Shown here: positions 49,239 through 54,025 of the stretch, piece by piece
Layout of the letters: each line of letters begins with the position of its first letter
Numbering within the stretch: position 1 is the stretch's first letter
Assembly (NCBI GenBank): GCA_020629875.1
Contig: JAHDCL010000007.1
Coordinates: 1 to 54,025, forward strand
Origin: Hellea sp.
Lineage (GTDB): Bacteria > Pseudomonadota > Alphaproteobacteria > Caulobacterales > Maricaulaceae
Direction of reading: 5' to 3'
Length of the DNA stretch: 54,025 nt
Program-made: the position numbers and the translations under genes
The notes under the pieces: model-generated
The model's input: the letters and a program-made list of their open reading frames with translations, nothing else
Told to the model about the DNA's origin: nothing
Database searches by the model: none

Positions 49239-49346
49239 GGCCATGTCCCATTTTGTTTATTTCATTCATTCTAGGCTTTAAGGCCTGCGCCGCACAAATA
49301 TTTTCTAAAGACGTGACGCCGCAGCTCATATTTGGCACAAGACGCT

Positions 49347-49766
49347 ATGCTTCGGATAACCCCTCGCATAACTGTCCCCTTTGATGAGATTGAGATGACG
49401 GCCATTCGCGCCCAAGGCCCCGGCGGGCAAAACGTCAATAAGGTGAGCTCGGCCATCCATCTACGTTATGATATCAACGTCTCATCTTTGCTCGAGGGTC
49501 AGAAGGATCGCGTAAAATCCTTTCGCGATAAACGTATCACCAAAGACGGCGTCATTGTCATCAAAGCGCAAAACCACCGCACCCAAGAGCGCAATAAGCA
49601 AGAAGCCTTAGACCGTCTCCAAGCCCTCCTCGCTGAAGCCTTAAAACCAAAAACCTATCGGCGTCCCACCCGCCCGAGTTATGGCGCGGTTAAGCGGCGG
49701 CTTAAAAAGAAGACCGAGCGCAGTGAGGTTAAGAAACTCAGGGGTAAAATCCGAGACTTTGATTAA
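49347..49766 (+). CDS. arfB: Peptidyl-tRNA hydrolase ArfB (ribosome rescue)
   Basis: A 139-aa homologue of E. coli YaeJ/ArfB that frees stalled ribosomes by hydrolysing peptidyl-tRNA when no stop codon is in the A site. The GGQ motif is at 26-28 in RAQGPGGQNVNKVSSAIHLR. The C-terminal tail is highly basic (YGAVKRRLKKKTERSEVKKLRGK) and would enter the empty mRNA channel. The ATG at 49347 is chosen by alignment to the family start; a TTG five codons earlier is less likely. It lies 47 bases before the primase-like gene on the same strand, so a shared transcript is possible. Confidence 0.95.
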   Translation: MLRITPRITVPFDEIEMTAIRAQGPGGQNVNKVSSAIHLRYDINVSSLLEGQKDRVKSFRDKRITKDGVIVIKAQNHRTQERNKQEALDRLQALLAEALKPKTYRRPTRPSYGAVKRRLKKKTERSEVKKLRGKIRDFD

Positions 49767-49813: not shown

Positions 49814-51031
49814 ATGGCAACGCCGCATGAGATAATTGGGGAAGAATGGGCGGAGCGCGCGGGCGAGCTGGCCGATTGGGCGATGGAGCGCCTCGTTAAC
49901 CGCAAAGATGTTTGGGGGCAGTATTCTGTCCTAACGCCTGCTGAGCGCCGCCGTGAAGGCAAAAGCTATAAAGCTATGACGCTGCCGAAAAAGGAAATGC
50001 GCGGCGAGGATATGGTGACGATTGATAAGCTGACTCGTCACTTTGCCAGCCGCCATCACCGCAAGCCGCAAATTATCGGGCTTCATGCAAAGTCAAAGGA
50101 AACGACGTCGCGCTGGTTTGGTATCGATATCGACCTGCATGATGAGCATAAATTGGGTGCCGAAGATCATCAGCGCCGCAATCTGAACTGTGCCCTGAAA
50201 TGGTGGAAGGAGCTTCAGCAAAAGGGCTATGACCCCATGCTCTTTGATACCAATACCCAAGGCGGCTATCACCTCTGGGTTCTCTTTGAGGACCCCGCAC
50301 CGACAGTTGATATTTACGCCATGGTCAAAGGCATCGTCGAGACCTGGGAAGAAAACGGTCTGGATGAGGAGCCGGAGACATTTCCGAAAAAAGTCAAAGA
50401 GGATAGTCTGGGCTCTTGGTTTCGCCTGCCGGGGCTGCACCATACGCGCTATCATTATAGCTCGCTTTGGTCCGGGGATGATTGGCTCGATGATCCGTGG
50501 CTGACAGGACACAACGCCATTGACGTGATGCTCGAAGCGCGAGGCGGCCCGCCCCCACCGCGCATTGATACCGCCGATCCCGCCATGAGTGAGCTGCTCA
50601 CCCGTGGCCGCATGAGTAAAATTTCTATCGCCGCCAATCAGCGAAAATTTAAACGCACAGGCCGTGCCAAAGTCTGTATTGATTTGGACGGCGTGCTGGC
50701 GCTGCGTGTGAAGTCTGGCAAACGCACAGAGATAGGCCCGCCCATTGATGGCGCGGTCGAGTTTACCCGCGAGATTAATGACTATGCTGATATTATCGTG
50801 CTGACCTCGCGCATGGCGGATCTCTCGGGCCAAGAGCGGGACGAGATGAAAGCCAAAATCGAAACATGGCTTGACCGACACAGCCTCGCCTATACCTCCG
50901 TCCATGACGGCCAAGGCAAACCGCCCGCCCATGCCTATATTGACGATAAAGGCGTCTCCTGCCGCCCCGAATATGATGGGCAAAGAGCTTTCACGCAGGC
51001 CTTGGGCTTGGTAGGAAAGCTGTGTGAGTGA
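49814..51031 (+). CDS. Archaeo-eukaryotic primase-like domain fused to HAD phosphatase domain
   Basis: The protein has 405 aa. Residues ~65-245 look like an archaeo-eukaryotic primase (AEP/PrimPol) domain. The metal-binding DxD is Asp105/Asp107 in WFGIDIDLHD, a conserved His153 lies in TQGGYHLWVLF, and SWFRLPGLHHTRYHYSSLW (201-219) resembles the third motif. Residues ~285-395 look like a HAD phosphatase: Asp290/Asp292 in CIDLDGVLA, Thr331-Ser332 in IVLTSR and Asp377/Asp378 in AYIDDKG. AEP domains synthesise primers or fill gaps, and HAD domains in such fusions can remove terminal phosphates. It heads an operon ending in an ATP-dependent DNA ligase. No ribosome binding site precedes the ATG. 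The domain calls rest on motifs; the biochemical role is inferred. Confidence 0.75.
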   Translation: MATPHEIIGEEWAERAGELADWAMERLVNRKDVWGQYSVLTPAERRREGKSYKAMTLPKKEMRGEDMVTIDKLTRHFASRHHRKPQIIGLHAKSKETTSRWFGIDIDLHDEHKLGAEDHQRRNLNCALKWWKELQQKGYDPMLFDTNTQGGYHLWVLFEDPAPTVDIYAMVKGIVETWEENGLDEEPETFPKKVKEDSLGSWFRLPGLHHTRYHYSSLWSGDDWLDDPWLTGHNAIDVMLEARGGPPPPRIDTADPAMSELLTRGRMSKISIAANQRKFKRTGRAKVCIDLDGVLALRVKSGKRTEIGPPIDGAVEFTREINDYADIIVLTSRMADLSGQERDEMKAKIETWLDRHSLAYTSVHDGQGKPPAHAYIDDKGVSCRPEYDGQRAFTQALGLVGKLCE

Positions 51032-51037
51032 GGGACC

Positions 51038-51667
51038 ATGCCGCGTAAGTTAGAATTCATATTTGGCAATGAAGCCTTTAAAGTTGCCATTCACAAGGTG
51101 GACCGGTCCAAGGTTTATGGCCGTGTGGAGACGGAGACCTTTGACGCCAATATGAAGCCTTGCACGCTGGCGACGCTCGCGCGGGACGGGCGGACGATTA
51201 TTCCTTATGGCGGCACGGCGAGCGGTTATGTGAACACCGAAGGGCTCTGGGTAACGCGGGATGAGCTTATCCCGATTAATCGCGATGGCGAGGAAATCTC
51301 CGAAGTCGAGTCCAGTTTCAAAGCCCCGACCAAGCTCACCGAAGAAGTCGATATTGAGACCTTTCTGGATCACCCCATAAGGCTCGCTTACCGTCTCGAC
51401 GCCGAAACCGAGATAAATGACGGCCTGATGCAAAAGCTGAAAGCGGGCGCGATTTATCAATTCCCCTTCTCTTATCGCGGCGGCATTTATCACGACCCCG
51501 CCTTTTTGATGATGGGCGAGGATGATGTTCTCTGGATGCTTATCGGGCATAAGAGCGAGATAGAATTTGTCGGCTTTGAACAGGCGGCCATTTGCGCGGC
51601 CCGCGCAGAAGAGCTCGGCGAAGATGATAGCGGCGAAACCGACGCCTTTGACTTTGATATGTTGTAG
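51038..51667 (+). CDS. Unknown protein in the primase-ligase operon
   Basis: A 209-aa soluble, beta-rich acidic protein with no signal peptide or membrane segment. The central stretch (IIPYGGTASGYVNTEGLWV, then RDELIPI, then FLDHPIRLAYRLDAE) has a general layout reminiscent of the Ku core beta-barrel, where similar turns precede a KPYYLAPD-like segment, but the match is weak. The N-terminus KVDRSKVYGRVETE and the C-terminal half (FPFSYRGGIYHDPAFLMM) are well-ordered globular sequence. AGGGA sits five bases before the ATG. It starts six bases after the primase-HAD gene, so the two are probably made together. Function not recognised. Confidence 0.75.
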   Translation: MPRKLEFIFGNEAFKVAIHKVDRSKVYGRVETETFDANMKPCTLATLARDGRTIIPYGGTASGYVNTEGLWVTRDELIPINRDGEEISEVESSFKAPTKLTEEVDIETFLDHPIRLAYRLDAETEINDGLMQKLKAGAIYQFPFSYRGGIYHDPAFLMMGEDDVLWMLIGHKSEIEFVGFEQAAICAARAEELGEDDSGETDAFDFDML

Positions 51668-51669
51668 TT

Positions 51670-52011
51670 ATGTTAGAGCAAGAAAAAATATGCTCGCAAA
51701 ATGGGGTGGAATTATACCCTGCGCTTTCTAATCAAATGATTGGCGTCTCTGATAATTTTGGAGATAAAAGTTTGACCAACCATGGCCTACGCCATGCCCC
51801 AGAAAAAGGCACCTGTGGTTGGTATCTATGGTCAGGGGACTATTCCCAAGCCGATGACTTTTTCAAACCAATGCATGTCAGCCACATGGAATCTAAATTT
51901 CCCAATTTAGTAAAGTTTTTGGGATTACCTCCGGGTTGGCGATTTTTGGTTGGGGATGACCATGAAGATATATGGTTCGATGCTAGTCTCTTGGATTTGG
52001 GGAATAACTAA
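51670..52011 (+). CDS. Small Imm33/DUF2185-like protein inserted in the operon
   Basis: A 113-aa soluble protein. The C-terminal part (GTCGWYLWSGDY, FFKPMHVSHM, FLGLPPGWRFLVGDDHEDIWFD) resembles the DUF2185/Imm33 immunity-like domain, recalled by pattern and not confirmed. The base composition is visibly more AT-rich than the flanking genes, and codon choice differs (TTA, AAA, TTT common). No ribosome binding site precedes the ATG, which is two bases after the previous stop. Its stop overlaps the next start by one base (TAATG). It could be a recent insertion into an older operon or an immunity-type accessory. Confidence 0.65.
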   Translation: MLEQEKICSQNGVELYPALSNQMIGVSDNFGDKSLTNHGLRHAPEKGTCGWYLWSGDYSQADDFFKPMHVSHMESKFPNLVKFLGLPPGWRFLVGDDHEDIWFDASLLDLGNN

Positions 52012-52721
52012 TGCCTAACGTCAATCTCTCAGATGCGCGGATGCGCGATGCCGTTGTTAAGGCGGAGTCGACGCGTCAGCGGCGCACGATATTCTATCAG
52101 GGCCCGAAAAAGCTCCCTGCCTATACGCGCAAAGTATTGAAAGGCGCGGTGCATCAAGATTATGAATCCATGCTGGAGATTTATAAAACGCCTGAGGCTT
52201 TGGGCGCGGCCCTCGCTGAGGGAGACCCTGAGATTGATTTTGAGCGGGACGGTATGTTCCTCTGGGATTTATCGCGGGTTTATATCAATCCCAAAGAAGA
52301 GTTGGTTTACCGCATTCAGCAAGAAGAGGTGGTTTATAATCCCGATGGCTCTGTACGGGAACGGCGCGAGCAAAGACGGCTGGAAGCCAATGTCGATGAA
52401 GAGATTCCCCTGACATGGACGGGGAAGATGATTCCCAAAGCCGAAGCCATTCGCAAATTCGTTTTCGCAACCAAGCTTCAGATCGTGCATATTAATGGCC
52501 TGACCTATGACTTTCTTTATGAGATGGCTAAGGAACTGCATGAGGCGAAATCACTGATGATTGTGGGCGCGGGGCCGAGCGGTAAAGCGCCGCTGATTTT
52601 CCGCTCACGCTCCCTCCCTTATCGCGGCTTTTTGGAAGGCCGGATTGACGGCGATAAATATATACTGCTTCTGCATCTCTCGAACTTGGAGCTGAAAGTG
52701 CCGGAGGCAGATGATGCCTAA
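52011..52721 (+). CDS. Unknown protein in the primase-ligase operon
   Basis: A 236-aa charged, soluble protein, rich in Arg and Glu, with no signal peptide or membrane segment. Distinct stretches are TIFYQGPKKLPAYTRKVL near the N-terminus, LVYRIQQEEVVYNPDGSVRER in the middle, and LMIVGAGPSGKAPLIFRSR followed by YILLLHLSNLELKV at the end. The GAGPSGKAP loop looks like a turn rather than a Walker A (no GKS/T). GGGGA lies about eight bases before the ATG. It overlaps the ligase start by eight bases, so its product is probably made in step with the ligase. Family not recognised; a DNA-binding or scaffold role is only a guess. Confidence 0.75.
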   Translation: MPNVNLSDARMRDAVVKAESTRQRRTIFYQGPKKLPAYTRKVLKGAVHQDYESMLEIYKTPEALGAALAEGDPEIDFERDGMFLWDLSRVYINPKEELVYRIQQEEVVYNPDGSVRERREQRRLEANVDEEIPLTWTGKMIPKAEAIRKFVFATKLQIVHINGLTYDFLYEMAKELHEAKSLMIVGAGPSGKAPLIFRSRSLPYRGFLEGRIDGDKYILLLHLSNLELKVPEADDA

Positions 52722-54025
52722 GCTCTATAATGAAGAGAATATGCGGGCTGTGCTCGGCCCTTATCGTATCGGCTCCATCGATGATCTAAACGAAGACGGA
52801 TTGCTCCGCATTGCGCGTATGCGGCGGCGTCAGCTCGGTCAGATGACAATGGCGCTTGATACGGAAAGTGCCAAACGCCGCATCCCCGACGGGGAGTATC
52901 AGATTAGCCAGAAAATCGATGGTGAGTTTACGATGCTCATTTATCGAGATGGCGAGGCCTGTATTCTCAACCCCGGTAAAACCTTACGCGCAGGCGCACC
53001 TTTCCTTGAGGAAGCCATTAGCCACCTTAAAAATGCGGGCGTGAAAAAAGCGCTTATCGGCGGTGAATTTTATGTGCAGCGCACAGAAGAGTTTCGCAAG
53101 AAAGACGGCAAAGCCACACGTGTTCACGACATTGTCCGTATAGGCCGCAAACCGACCACCGATGAAGAGCTAGGACAGCTCGGTTTTGCCTGTTTCAATA
53201 TTTACGACCTGGACGGCCATGACCTGTCTATGGATTACACAGCCTCGATTTCGAAACTCTCTGAGATATTTGGCGGCGGGAAACTTATTCACCCTGTCAA
53301 AACCGTAAACGGGGAAAATTTCGCCGCAGTCCTGAAGCAATATGATATTTGGGTTACAGAAGGCGGGCATGAAGGTGTGGTCGCGCGCTCCCCCAATGCC
53401 GGTGTGTTTAAGGTTAAGCCTAAGCATAATCTCGACCTCGCCGTCATCGGATTTACCGAGAGCACAGATGATCGCCAAGGCATGCTGCATGATATGCTGC
53501 TCGCGATTGTTCGCGGCGATGGGAGCTATCAAATTGTCACCCGTGTCGGCGGCGGCTTTTCCGATGAGCAGCGCAAATTGATTTTAAAGCAGCTCCAAGC
53601 GCGCGTGGTGGAAAGTGACTTTCACGAGGTGAATTCCGCGCGCGTGGCTTACCAAATGGTGGAGCCAGGATTGGTGGCTGAGATCACCTGTCTGGATTTG
53701 GTGGCCATGACATCGCGCGGTAACCCGATTGATAAGATGGTATTGGAATGGAACGCGGATGAAGCGCGCTGGGAAGGGCTTCGCCGCCTTCCGCTCTGCT
53801 CGATTATCTCGCCGCAATTTGTCCGCTTTCGCGATGATAAACAGGCACAAAAAGATGATGTCCGTCTGGCCCAGCTCACCGACATTGTCGAAATACCTGA
53901 TGTGAACCGCGTGGCCGAAGAAATTGTGCTACCCGAATCTAAAATCATTAAGCGGGCCGTGGCGCTTAAAGAACTTCGCGGGGCAACCATGGTGCGCAAA
54001 ATCGTGCTCTGGAAAACCAATAAAG
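52714..54025 (+). CDS. ATP-dependent DNA ligase (3' end beyond the window)
   Basis: The open frame runs to the window edge, so 437 residues are visible. The nucleotidyltransferase core is clear: motif I QKIDG with the AMP-accepting Lys67, a conserved Glu118 in LIGGEFYV (motif III region), EGVVAR (motif IV, ~220-225) and FKVKPKH (motif V, ~232-238). An OB-fold-like region follows (VIGFTES onward). It seals nicks in DNA using ATP, unlike the NAD-dependent LigA used in replication. I prefer the second of two adjacent ATG codons (52714) because GGAGG is six bases upstream. The start overlaps the preceding gene by eight bases. The ~60 residues before motif I and the extended C-terminal part do not match LigD's usual polymerase or phosphoesterase domains. 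Confidence 0.88.
   Translation, partial: MPKLYNEENMRAVLGPYRIGSIDDLNEDGLLRIARMRRRQLGQMTMALDTESAKRRIPDGEYQISQKIDGEFTMLIYRDGEACILNPGKTLRAGAPFLEEAISHLKNAGVKKALIGGEFYVQRTEEFRKKDGKATRVHDIVRIGRKPTTDEELGQLGFACFNIYDLDGHDLSMDYTASISKLSEIFGGGKLIHPVKTVNGENFAAVLKQYDIWVTEGGHEGVVARSPNAGVFKVKPKHNLDLAVIGFTESTDDRQGMLHDMLLAIVRGDGSYQIVTRVGGGFSDEQRKLILKQLQARVVESDFHEVNSARVAYQMVEPGLVAEITCLDLVAMTSRGNPIDKMVLEWNADEARWEGLRRLPLCSIISPQFVRFRDDKQAQKDDVRLAQLTDIVEIPDVNRVAEEIVLPESKIIKRAVALKELRGATMVRKIVLWKTNK

Follow-up and report, generated by a model that had tools for sequence, protein, structure and literature searches.

A conserved alpha- and gammaproteobacterial operon with a predicted Ku-fold protein and candidate DNA end-joining enzymes

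The operon described here lies at the 3' end of a contig from Hellea sp. (GenBank assembly GCA_020629875.1, contig JAHDCL010000007.1). The window, i.e., the whole stretch of DNA that was analysed, is the entire contig of 54,025 nucleotides, one of 126 contigs in a 2.59 Mb genome. Five genes on the + strand, p1, p2, an Imm33-like gene, p4 and p5, are packed together, and four of them, joined in relatives by a nuclease gene (p6), may form a DNA end-joining system that includes a predicted Ku-fold protein. The original prediction, made from the sequence alone, had read the five genes as an end-processing operon for repair or defence, and this reading is partly supported by the results presented below. 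A check of open reading frames (ORFs) in the window confirmed all five genes, which are listed with the motifs discussed later.

49814-51031, + strand: p1, 405 amino acids (aa); AEP primase-polymerase domain (aa 61-213) in fusion with a HAD phosphatase domain (about aa 277-384)
50126-50134, + strand: AEP motif I, D105-x-D107 (coordinates derived from the ORF start); invariant in 26/26
50681-50692, + strand: HAD motif I at aa 290-293, DLDG; both D290 and D292 unchanged in 26/26
51038-51667, + strand: p2, 209 aa; predicted Ku-fold core at about aa 1-174 and an acidic, probably disordered tail
51647-51664, + strand: C-terminal tip of p2, FDFDML; consensus [LFI][DS]Fx[MV][LM] at the protein end
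51670-52011, + strand: gene 3, Imm33-like, 113 aa; PF24719, 122.7 bits
52011-52721, + strand: p4, 236 aa; candidate second Ku-like subunit
52714 (or 52711)-54025, + strand: p5, ATP-dependent DNA ligase, at least 437 aa, its 3' part missing where the contig stops; relatives have about 490 aa
52912-52914, + strand: nucleotidyl-lysine codon of the ligase motif KxDGE; K67 by the numbering of the relative at locus L008; invariant in 22/22

The spacing agrees with the tight packing first described: gaps of 6 and 2 bases separate the first three genes, and the first overlap is 1 base. The last overlap, given as 8 bases, has that length when p5 is read from its second ATG and is 11 bases from the first; most relatives begin at the residue of the second methionine. 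The ligase gene is incomplete in the window because the contig ends inside it. On the same strand, a gene for a release-factor-like RF-1 domain (49332-49766) stops 47 bases upstream of p1.

When the p4 alignment was used to scan the GTDB genome collection, 36 further loci were obtained, hence 37 with the window; the scan relied on two N-terminal patterns of p4 and missed more distant relatives. The members present keep a fixed order and strand in all 37 loci, namely AEP-HAD, p2, p4, ligase and a nuclease of the EEP family. By tblastn over all 37 loci, p4 is found in 37 (by selection), p2 in 34, p5 in 33, p1 in 31 and p6 in 26; 22 loci have five members, 8 have four, 5 have three and 2 have two. 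At the three loci where p2 is not beside p4 (L025, L038 and L040), p2 lies elsewhere in the genome (3/3), and the same holds for p1 in the six genomes whose p4 locus is without it (6/6). For two of these six, L019 and L032, the contig of the locus simply starts within p2, and genome G827 carries p1 and p2 together on a different contig from p4 and p5. In the order to which the gammaproteobacterial genome G844 belongs, p2 occurs in 18 of the 48 genomes, and these coincide exactly with the 18 known carriers of p4. The homologues co-occur across loci and genomes. The five window genes and their spacing are real, and the order, gene 3 excepted, is not a product of chance. Of the predicted five-gene set, the AEP-HAD protein, p2, p4 and the ligase stand; the set was incomplete, as the EEP nuclease gene beyond the contig end also belongs to it. 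The original prediction had further listed an Imm33-like protein as a member. The gene is present, between p2 and p4 and sharing one base with p4, and blastp against the ORFs of the loci found no copy outside the window. It is taken as a passenger outside the conserved system, and a toxin-immunity link to the system was rejected on the same ground. Two Thiotrichaceae metagenome-assembled genomes (MAGs) show a split operon, with p4 apart from p1 and p2, which lie elsewhere in the genome, and with genes between p4 and the ligase (L038, 2000-4474; L040, 9001-14197); in L038, p4 is located behind deformylase and formyltransferase genes.

The distribution of the operon is patchy. Among 99 relatives, the ligase was found in 6, own genome counted; the AEP-HAD alignment, run against 385 members of the class, recovered the full protein in the own genome only, plus one match to the HAD part, and the p4 alignment, run against 398 members of the phylum, recovered the own genome only. 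The titles of the locus records include Hellea, Granulosicoccaceae, Thiotrichaceae and Neomegalonema. A tree of p4 and p5 was built from the 32 of 37 loci that have both genes and enough of the ligase, with an undefined root and with MAG labels as taxon names. Eight Hellea-type rows form one clade (100/100), the nearest row to which is L025, labelled Thiotrichales, and Neomegalonema, alphaproteobacterial by label, is placed among gammaproteobacteria. Transfer of the operon between classes is the simplest reading of this tree. On a contig labelled Rickettsiales (L020), perhaps mislabelled or from a mixed bin, the operon groups with the Hellea-type rows.

The proposed fusion of a primase-like AEP domain to a HAD phosphatase is borne out by matches to its two halves. 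The only Pfam match of p1 at E<=1 is PF22548 (AEP-TOTE), at 30.2 bits against a cut-off of 27 (33.2 bits for p1 of L042), and the AEP stretch matches PDB entry 7nqf (E 2.3e-4). The HAD part was detected with PHROGs (phrog_1238 at 2.2e-10; phrog_415, a polynucleotide kinase, at 2.3e-4) and by PDB entry 1xpj, a 'hypothetical protein' (E 5.4e-7). Across the p1 alignment, D105, D107 and H153 of the AEP domain and D290, D292, T331, K369, D377 and D378 of the HAD domain are kept in 26/26 sequences; a candidate third acidic residue of the AEP domain, D237, is kept in 24/26, the remaining two having one E and one N. For the AEP, HAD and ligase domains alike, these residues are presumed to be catalytic on the strength of family motifs. 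The AEP domain is not closest to LigD: its nearest hidden Markov model (HMM) is AEP-TOTE, followed weakly by the sole NCBIfam match, a CRISPR-associated primase-polymerase model (PrimPol_Msp, 20.1 bits against a cut-off of 200).

The assignment of p5 as an ATP-dependent DNA ligase was upheld by PF04679 (DNA_ligase_A_C; 40.1 bits, E 5.1e-10) and by K67, D69 and E71 of the KxDGE motif, unchanged in 22/22. DNA_ligase_A_M stays under its cut-off of 26.2 bits in the window (20.8 bits) and reaches 29.1 bits in the full-length relative L008. The closest PDB match is a thermostable DNA ligase (2cfm, 3.3e-13). Among NCBIfam models, the best for p5 is the ligase domain of non-homologous end joining (NHEJ; TIGR02779, 6.4e-12), at 45.3 bits against a cut-off of 227.75, and TIGR02776 reaches 36.3 bits, below its cut-off of 373.2; both scores come from the incomplete window protein. 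At the C-terminus, relatives have a conserved stretch of about 110 further residues without a Pfam match (L008, 15191-16681, about aa 380-496), most of which is lost in the window.

The gene 3' of the ligase in relatives, at a position that the window's contig does not reach, encodes an EEP-family protein (PF03372). Its best PDB matches are exonuclease III chains 2jc4 and 6fk4 (1.4e-16), followed by NExo 6fk5 (1.1e-15) and the LINE-1 endonuclease (6.4e-15). Seven residues (N7, E35, H112, D143, N145, D228 and H229) are invariant in 16/16 sequences and, from family motifs, are taken to be catalytic. An enzyme of this kind could alternatively serve gap or excision repair, in which the operon would act in the manner of LigC/Prim-PolC: the AEP domain would fill short gaps, the HAD domain clean phosphates, the ligase seal nicks and the EEP nuclease cut abasic sites or trim 3' ends, with the partner proteins as scaffolds rather than a break clamp. 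One study (PMC5663958) describes an AEP-ligase operon whose products act together with enzymes of base excision repair, and the exonuclease III matches fit such a role, as does a UDG-superfamily glycosylase gene that lies 4.3-4.4 kb 5' of p1 in three loci from Granulosicoccaceae that have this flank in common (L041, 2143-2682; L043, 2193-2759; L046, 2172-2714; family call PF03167, 32 bits, from the L043 scan alone). However, the glycosylase is confined to these three loci, where other genes separate it from p1; the AEP matches are to AEP-TOTE and a CRISPR-associated PrimPol and not to LigD; and gap filling would not need the predicted Ku fold of p2. On balance, a gap or excision repair operon seems unlikely.

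The original prediction had named two conserved-looking proteins among the five. Both p2 and p4 do recur across loci, and neither matches Pfam or NCBIfam at E<=1. It had also implied that the set lacks Ku, which is at odds with the structure predictions. An AlphaFold model of p2, built on 29 sequences, has a mean predicted local distance difference test score (pLDDT) of 69.9, with 64 residues at 90 or above and a tail (175-209) below 50; stretches 25-34 and 44-52 are of low confidence. All 50 Foldseek matches listed from the PDB are Ku or Ku-complex entries, led by Bacillus subtilis Ku (9vnq_A, E 3.6e-7, probability 1.00). With VIA-align, the best match is Mycobacterium tuberculosis Ku (9i91_A, Z 11.6, root-mean-square deviation (rmsd) 5.4, 153 residues aligned), and the bacterial Ku entries 9i91_A, 9vnq_A and 8v53_B stand at Z 11.3-11.6 with 150-158 residues aligned. 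Among viral models (BFVD), just two matches fall under E 0.001, both named Ku. By prediction, therefore, p2 is supported as a Ku-fold protein. When the p2 profile was compared with PDB sequences, the top match was a phage head-closure protein (46 positions, E 0.0018), taken as a local likeness. An acidic linker at the C-terminus of p2 leads to a tip that follows the consensus given above, a pattern composed after inspection of the alignment, in all 29 aligned sequences. We liken this tip to the acidic tip of SSB, and it is read by that analogy as a putative docking peptide.

The second partner, p4, may be a further Ku-like protein and perhaps a second subunit, as its AlphaFold model (30 sequences) would suggest. 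Ku or Ku-complex entries make up 45 of its best 46 Foldseek matches, at E 0.011 for the best and with none below 0.001; the best 38 VIA-align matches are likewise to Ku or its complexes, with Z no higher than 6.6, graded weak by the tool. Complete p4 proteins extend 1-286 residues beyond position 232. Lysine-rich tails of 56-137 residues with 37-44% K+R are present in seven of them (L026, L029, L030, L032, L034, L038 and L040), and lysine-rich C-termini also occur in two canonical Ku proteins from relatives. All eight p4 proteins longer than 400 aa that were scanned (L035, L036, L039, L042, L044, L045, L050 and L052; L049 was left out) carry a SAM domain after a long linker. Variable, extended C-termini are described for bacterial Ku in one report (PMC9638933).

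Instead, p2 and p4 could have a SPOC/Ku-type barrel that binds a protein or peptide without forming a DNA-encircling Ku ring. With VIA-align, p2 matches SPOC (5kxf, Z 9.4) and INTS13-INTS14 (6sn1_B, Z 9.5) at rmsd 3.2-3.3, on par in Z with many eukaryotic Ku matches, and the low-confidence stretches of the p2 model leave room for such a fold. Bacterial Ku nevertheless scores higher and aligns over more residues (about 100 for the SPOC-type entries), though with worse rmsd. The uniformly Ku-related Foldseek matches listed for p2, the lysine-rich tails of some p4 proteins and the DNA-end enzymes encoded by the neighbouring genes point the same way, so that a SPOC-type role appears rather unlikely.

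The gene-order comparison was accompanied by profile searches for the canonical NHEJ proteins. Neither the Ku profile (PF02735) nor that of the LigD phosphoesterase (LigD_N, PF13298) matched in any of the 37 carrier genomes. For just 4 of the 37, the listed completeness is 90% or more and the contamination 5% or less, and most have no listed value; with so few carriers of known high completeness, single absences mean little. Canonical Ku occurs in 17 of the 99 relatives, all outside the six ligase carriers, in 43 of 249 genomes of a phylum sample and in 1 of the 48 genomes from the order of G844. This last case is a partial match (L088; G863 C1:515237-515455) covering positions 94-175 of 190 in an open frame of 85 aa. 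Given the low background of Ku, we do not claim from these raw counts that the operon and canonical Ku exclude each other.

The surroundings of the operon are less constant than its members: inserted genes vary by genome and flanks by lineage. The insertions comprise a DUF1800 protein with its neighbours (L008, 9939-13155), an NAD-dependent epimerase family protein (L011, 937-1917), a 445-aa protein (L037, 9746-11083) and a 164-aa protein (L012, 3440-3934). Opposite-strand genes at L008 were considered as a Ter/TelA stress module and rejected: Pfam assigns them DUF6638, AAA and, for two, no family over the cut-off, and they stand beside the operon in no other locus cluster. A plasmid collection gave no match to p1 or p4 (p2 and p5 were not searched). 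In phages, p4 and p5 had no match and p1 a match to its HAD part only (p2 was not searched). A mobile element reading was dropped, as viral contigs gave nothing beyond a 35% HAD-part match in two contigs (L015 and L016, 8001-8297), there to a small HAD-like ORF of 121 aa. A system directed against phages or other elements, with the TOTE-type AEP at its core, would suit the AEP-TOTE score of p1, which is over the Pfam cut-off, and the patchy distribution. Such a system is nonetheless highly improbable in view of the differing flanks and the phage and plasmid searches. Further, PADLOC models gave a single match at E<=1 to the five window proteins (RT_UG10_large to p1, E 0.089), and no TPR or TBP family was found in window p1-p5 (E<=1) or in p1, p2, p5 and p6 of L042 (E<=0.5), flanking genes being mostly unscanned.

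Taken together, the operon probably encodes a self-contained end-joining system that resembles Ku-LigD in logic and partly in fold, with its parts split and mostly replaced. The computed support consists of the gene set, its order, the co-occurrence of its members, the conservation of motif residues and, for p2, a predicted Ku fold. Ku is a ring that grips DNA ends. In the proposed mechanism, p2, probably with p4, would act as a divergent Ku-like clamp on the ends of a double-strand break; the exonuclease III-like EEP nuclease would trim blocked 3' ends; the HAD domain of p1 would strip terminal phosphate in place of the LigD phosphoesterase; the AEP domain would fill or extend the ends; and the ligase p5 would seal them. 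Prediction supports the presence of a Ku-fold protein, and the remaining steps are read from the identity of the domains. We infer that the products join ends, and likewise infer the p2-p4 pairing, the substrates, the order of the steps and the biological role. A more specific version is tentative, and we would place it somewhat short of an even chance: p2 and p4 would form a heterodimeric Ku missed by sequence searches, LigD would be replaced by the TOTE-type AEP, the HAD domain, the EEP nuclease and a separate ligase, and the operon would have been exchanged between alpha- and gammaproteobacteria.

Several results weigh against an end-joining system of this kind. The link of p2 and p4 to Ku depends on AlphaFold models, built on 29 sequences for p2 and 30 for p4, and sequence proof of Ku homology failed in profile comparison, permutation and controls with unrelated profiles. 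With hhalign, p2 or p4 against Ku gives a probability below 1%; their scores against Ku are matched by 10/60 and 13/60 permutations, respectively; against a 45-sequence Ku profile, p2 (18.8) scores below the unrelated controls EEP (21.7) and AEP (21.0); and ungapped windows do no better against Ku than a permuted null. Between p2 and p4 themselves, hhalign gives E 0.017 and a probability of 2.6%, and a script score of 20.2 is reached by 1/60 column permutations, but the unrelated pair Ku and EEP scores higher (22.0). At the level of structure, the Foldseek match of p2 to 9vnq_A has a template modelling (TM) score of only 0.45/0.42 with rmsd 11.3, and its bacterial Ku matches in VIA-align have rmsd 5.3-5.7. 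The p4 model is poor (mean pLDDT 50.6), its Z of 6.6 falls in the range that the tool labels a common arrangement, and the p4 of the window and the other Hellea-type copies, with 4-13 residues past position 232, have no long basic tail. Moreover, p5 is not adjacent to p4 in L033 and L043, where other genes come after p4, and the EEP gene is at only 26/37 loci, though several contigs stop there. Finally, as Ku is uncommon in these groups (1/48 and 17/99), its absence from all 37 carriers does not establish Ku replacement.

If the end-joining reading is true, Ku-based end joining in bacteria would be wider than HMM searches for Ku and LigD show and would include lineages scored as being without it. 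A two-protein bacterial Ku would parallel the eukaryotic Ku70/80 and be testable with two small proteins. With the polymerase-phosphatase, the nuclease and the ligase on separate proteins, in contrast to the fused LigD, end joining could be studied step by step.

No description of the operon, and no published name for it, was found in the open PMC literature, and four known arrangements serve as points of comparison. The TOTE conflict systems, named for TPR, OB, TBP and Effector (PMC12458937), share the AEP-TOTE family with p1; unlike them, the operon has ligase, Ku-fold and EEP genes, and the scanned proteins have no TPR or TBP family. The mycobacterial LigC/Prim-PolC operon similarly links an AEP gene to a gene for an ATP-dependent ligase, whereas no Ku-fold, HAD or EEP gene is named there in the excerpts of the source, and the AEP family nearest to p1 is a different one (PMC5663958). 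In bacteria with two Ku genes in one operon, the pair would correspond to the two candidate Ku-like genes p2 and p4, which stand together here; in contrast, p2 and p4 fall outside the Ku HMM and are barely alike. The closest parallel in logic is the Ku-LigD NHEJ of M. tuberculosis and B. subtilis, with which the operon shares the linkage of a predicted Ku fold, an AEP polymerase, an end-phosphate enzyme and an ATP-dependent ligase, as well as a ligase whose best NCBIfam model is the NHEJ ligase domain and, in some p4 proteins, a lysine-rich tail. It differs in its separate genes, an AEP nearest to AEP-TOTE, a HAD domain in place of the LigD phosphoesterase and an added EEP nuclease. Bacterial Ku is a homodimer according to one study (PMC12784961), whereas the predicted Ku of this operon is invisible to PF02735 and perhaps consists of two subunits.

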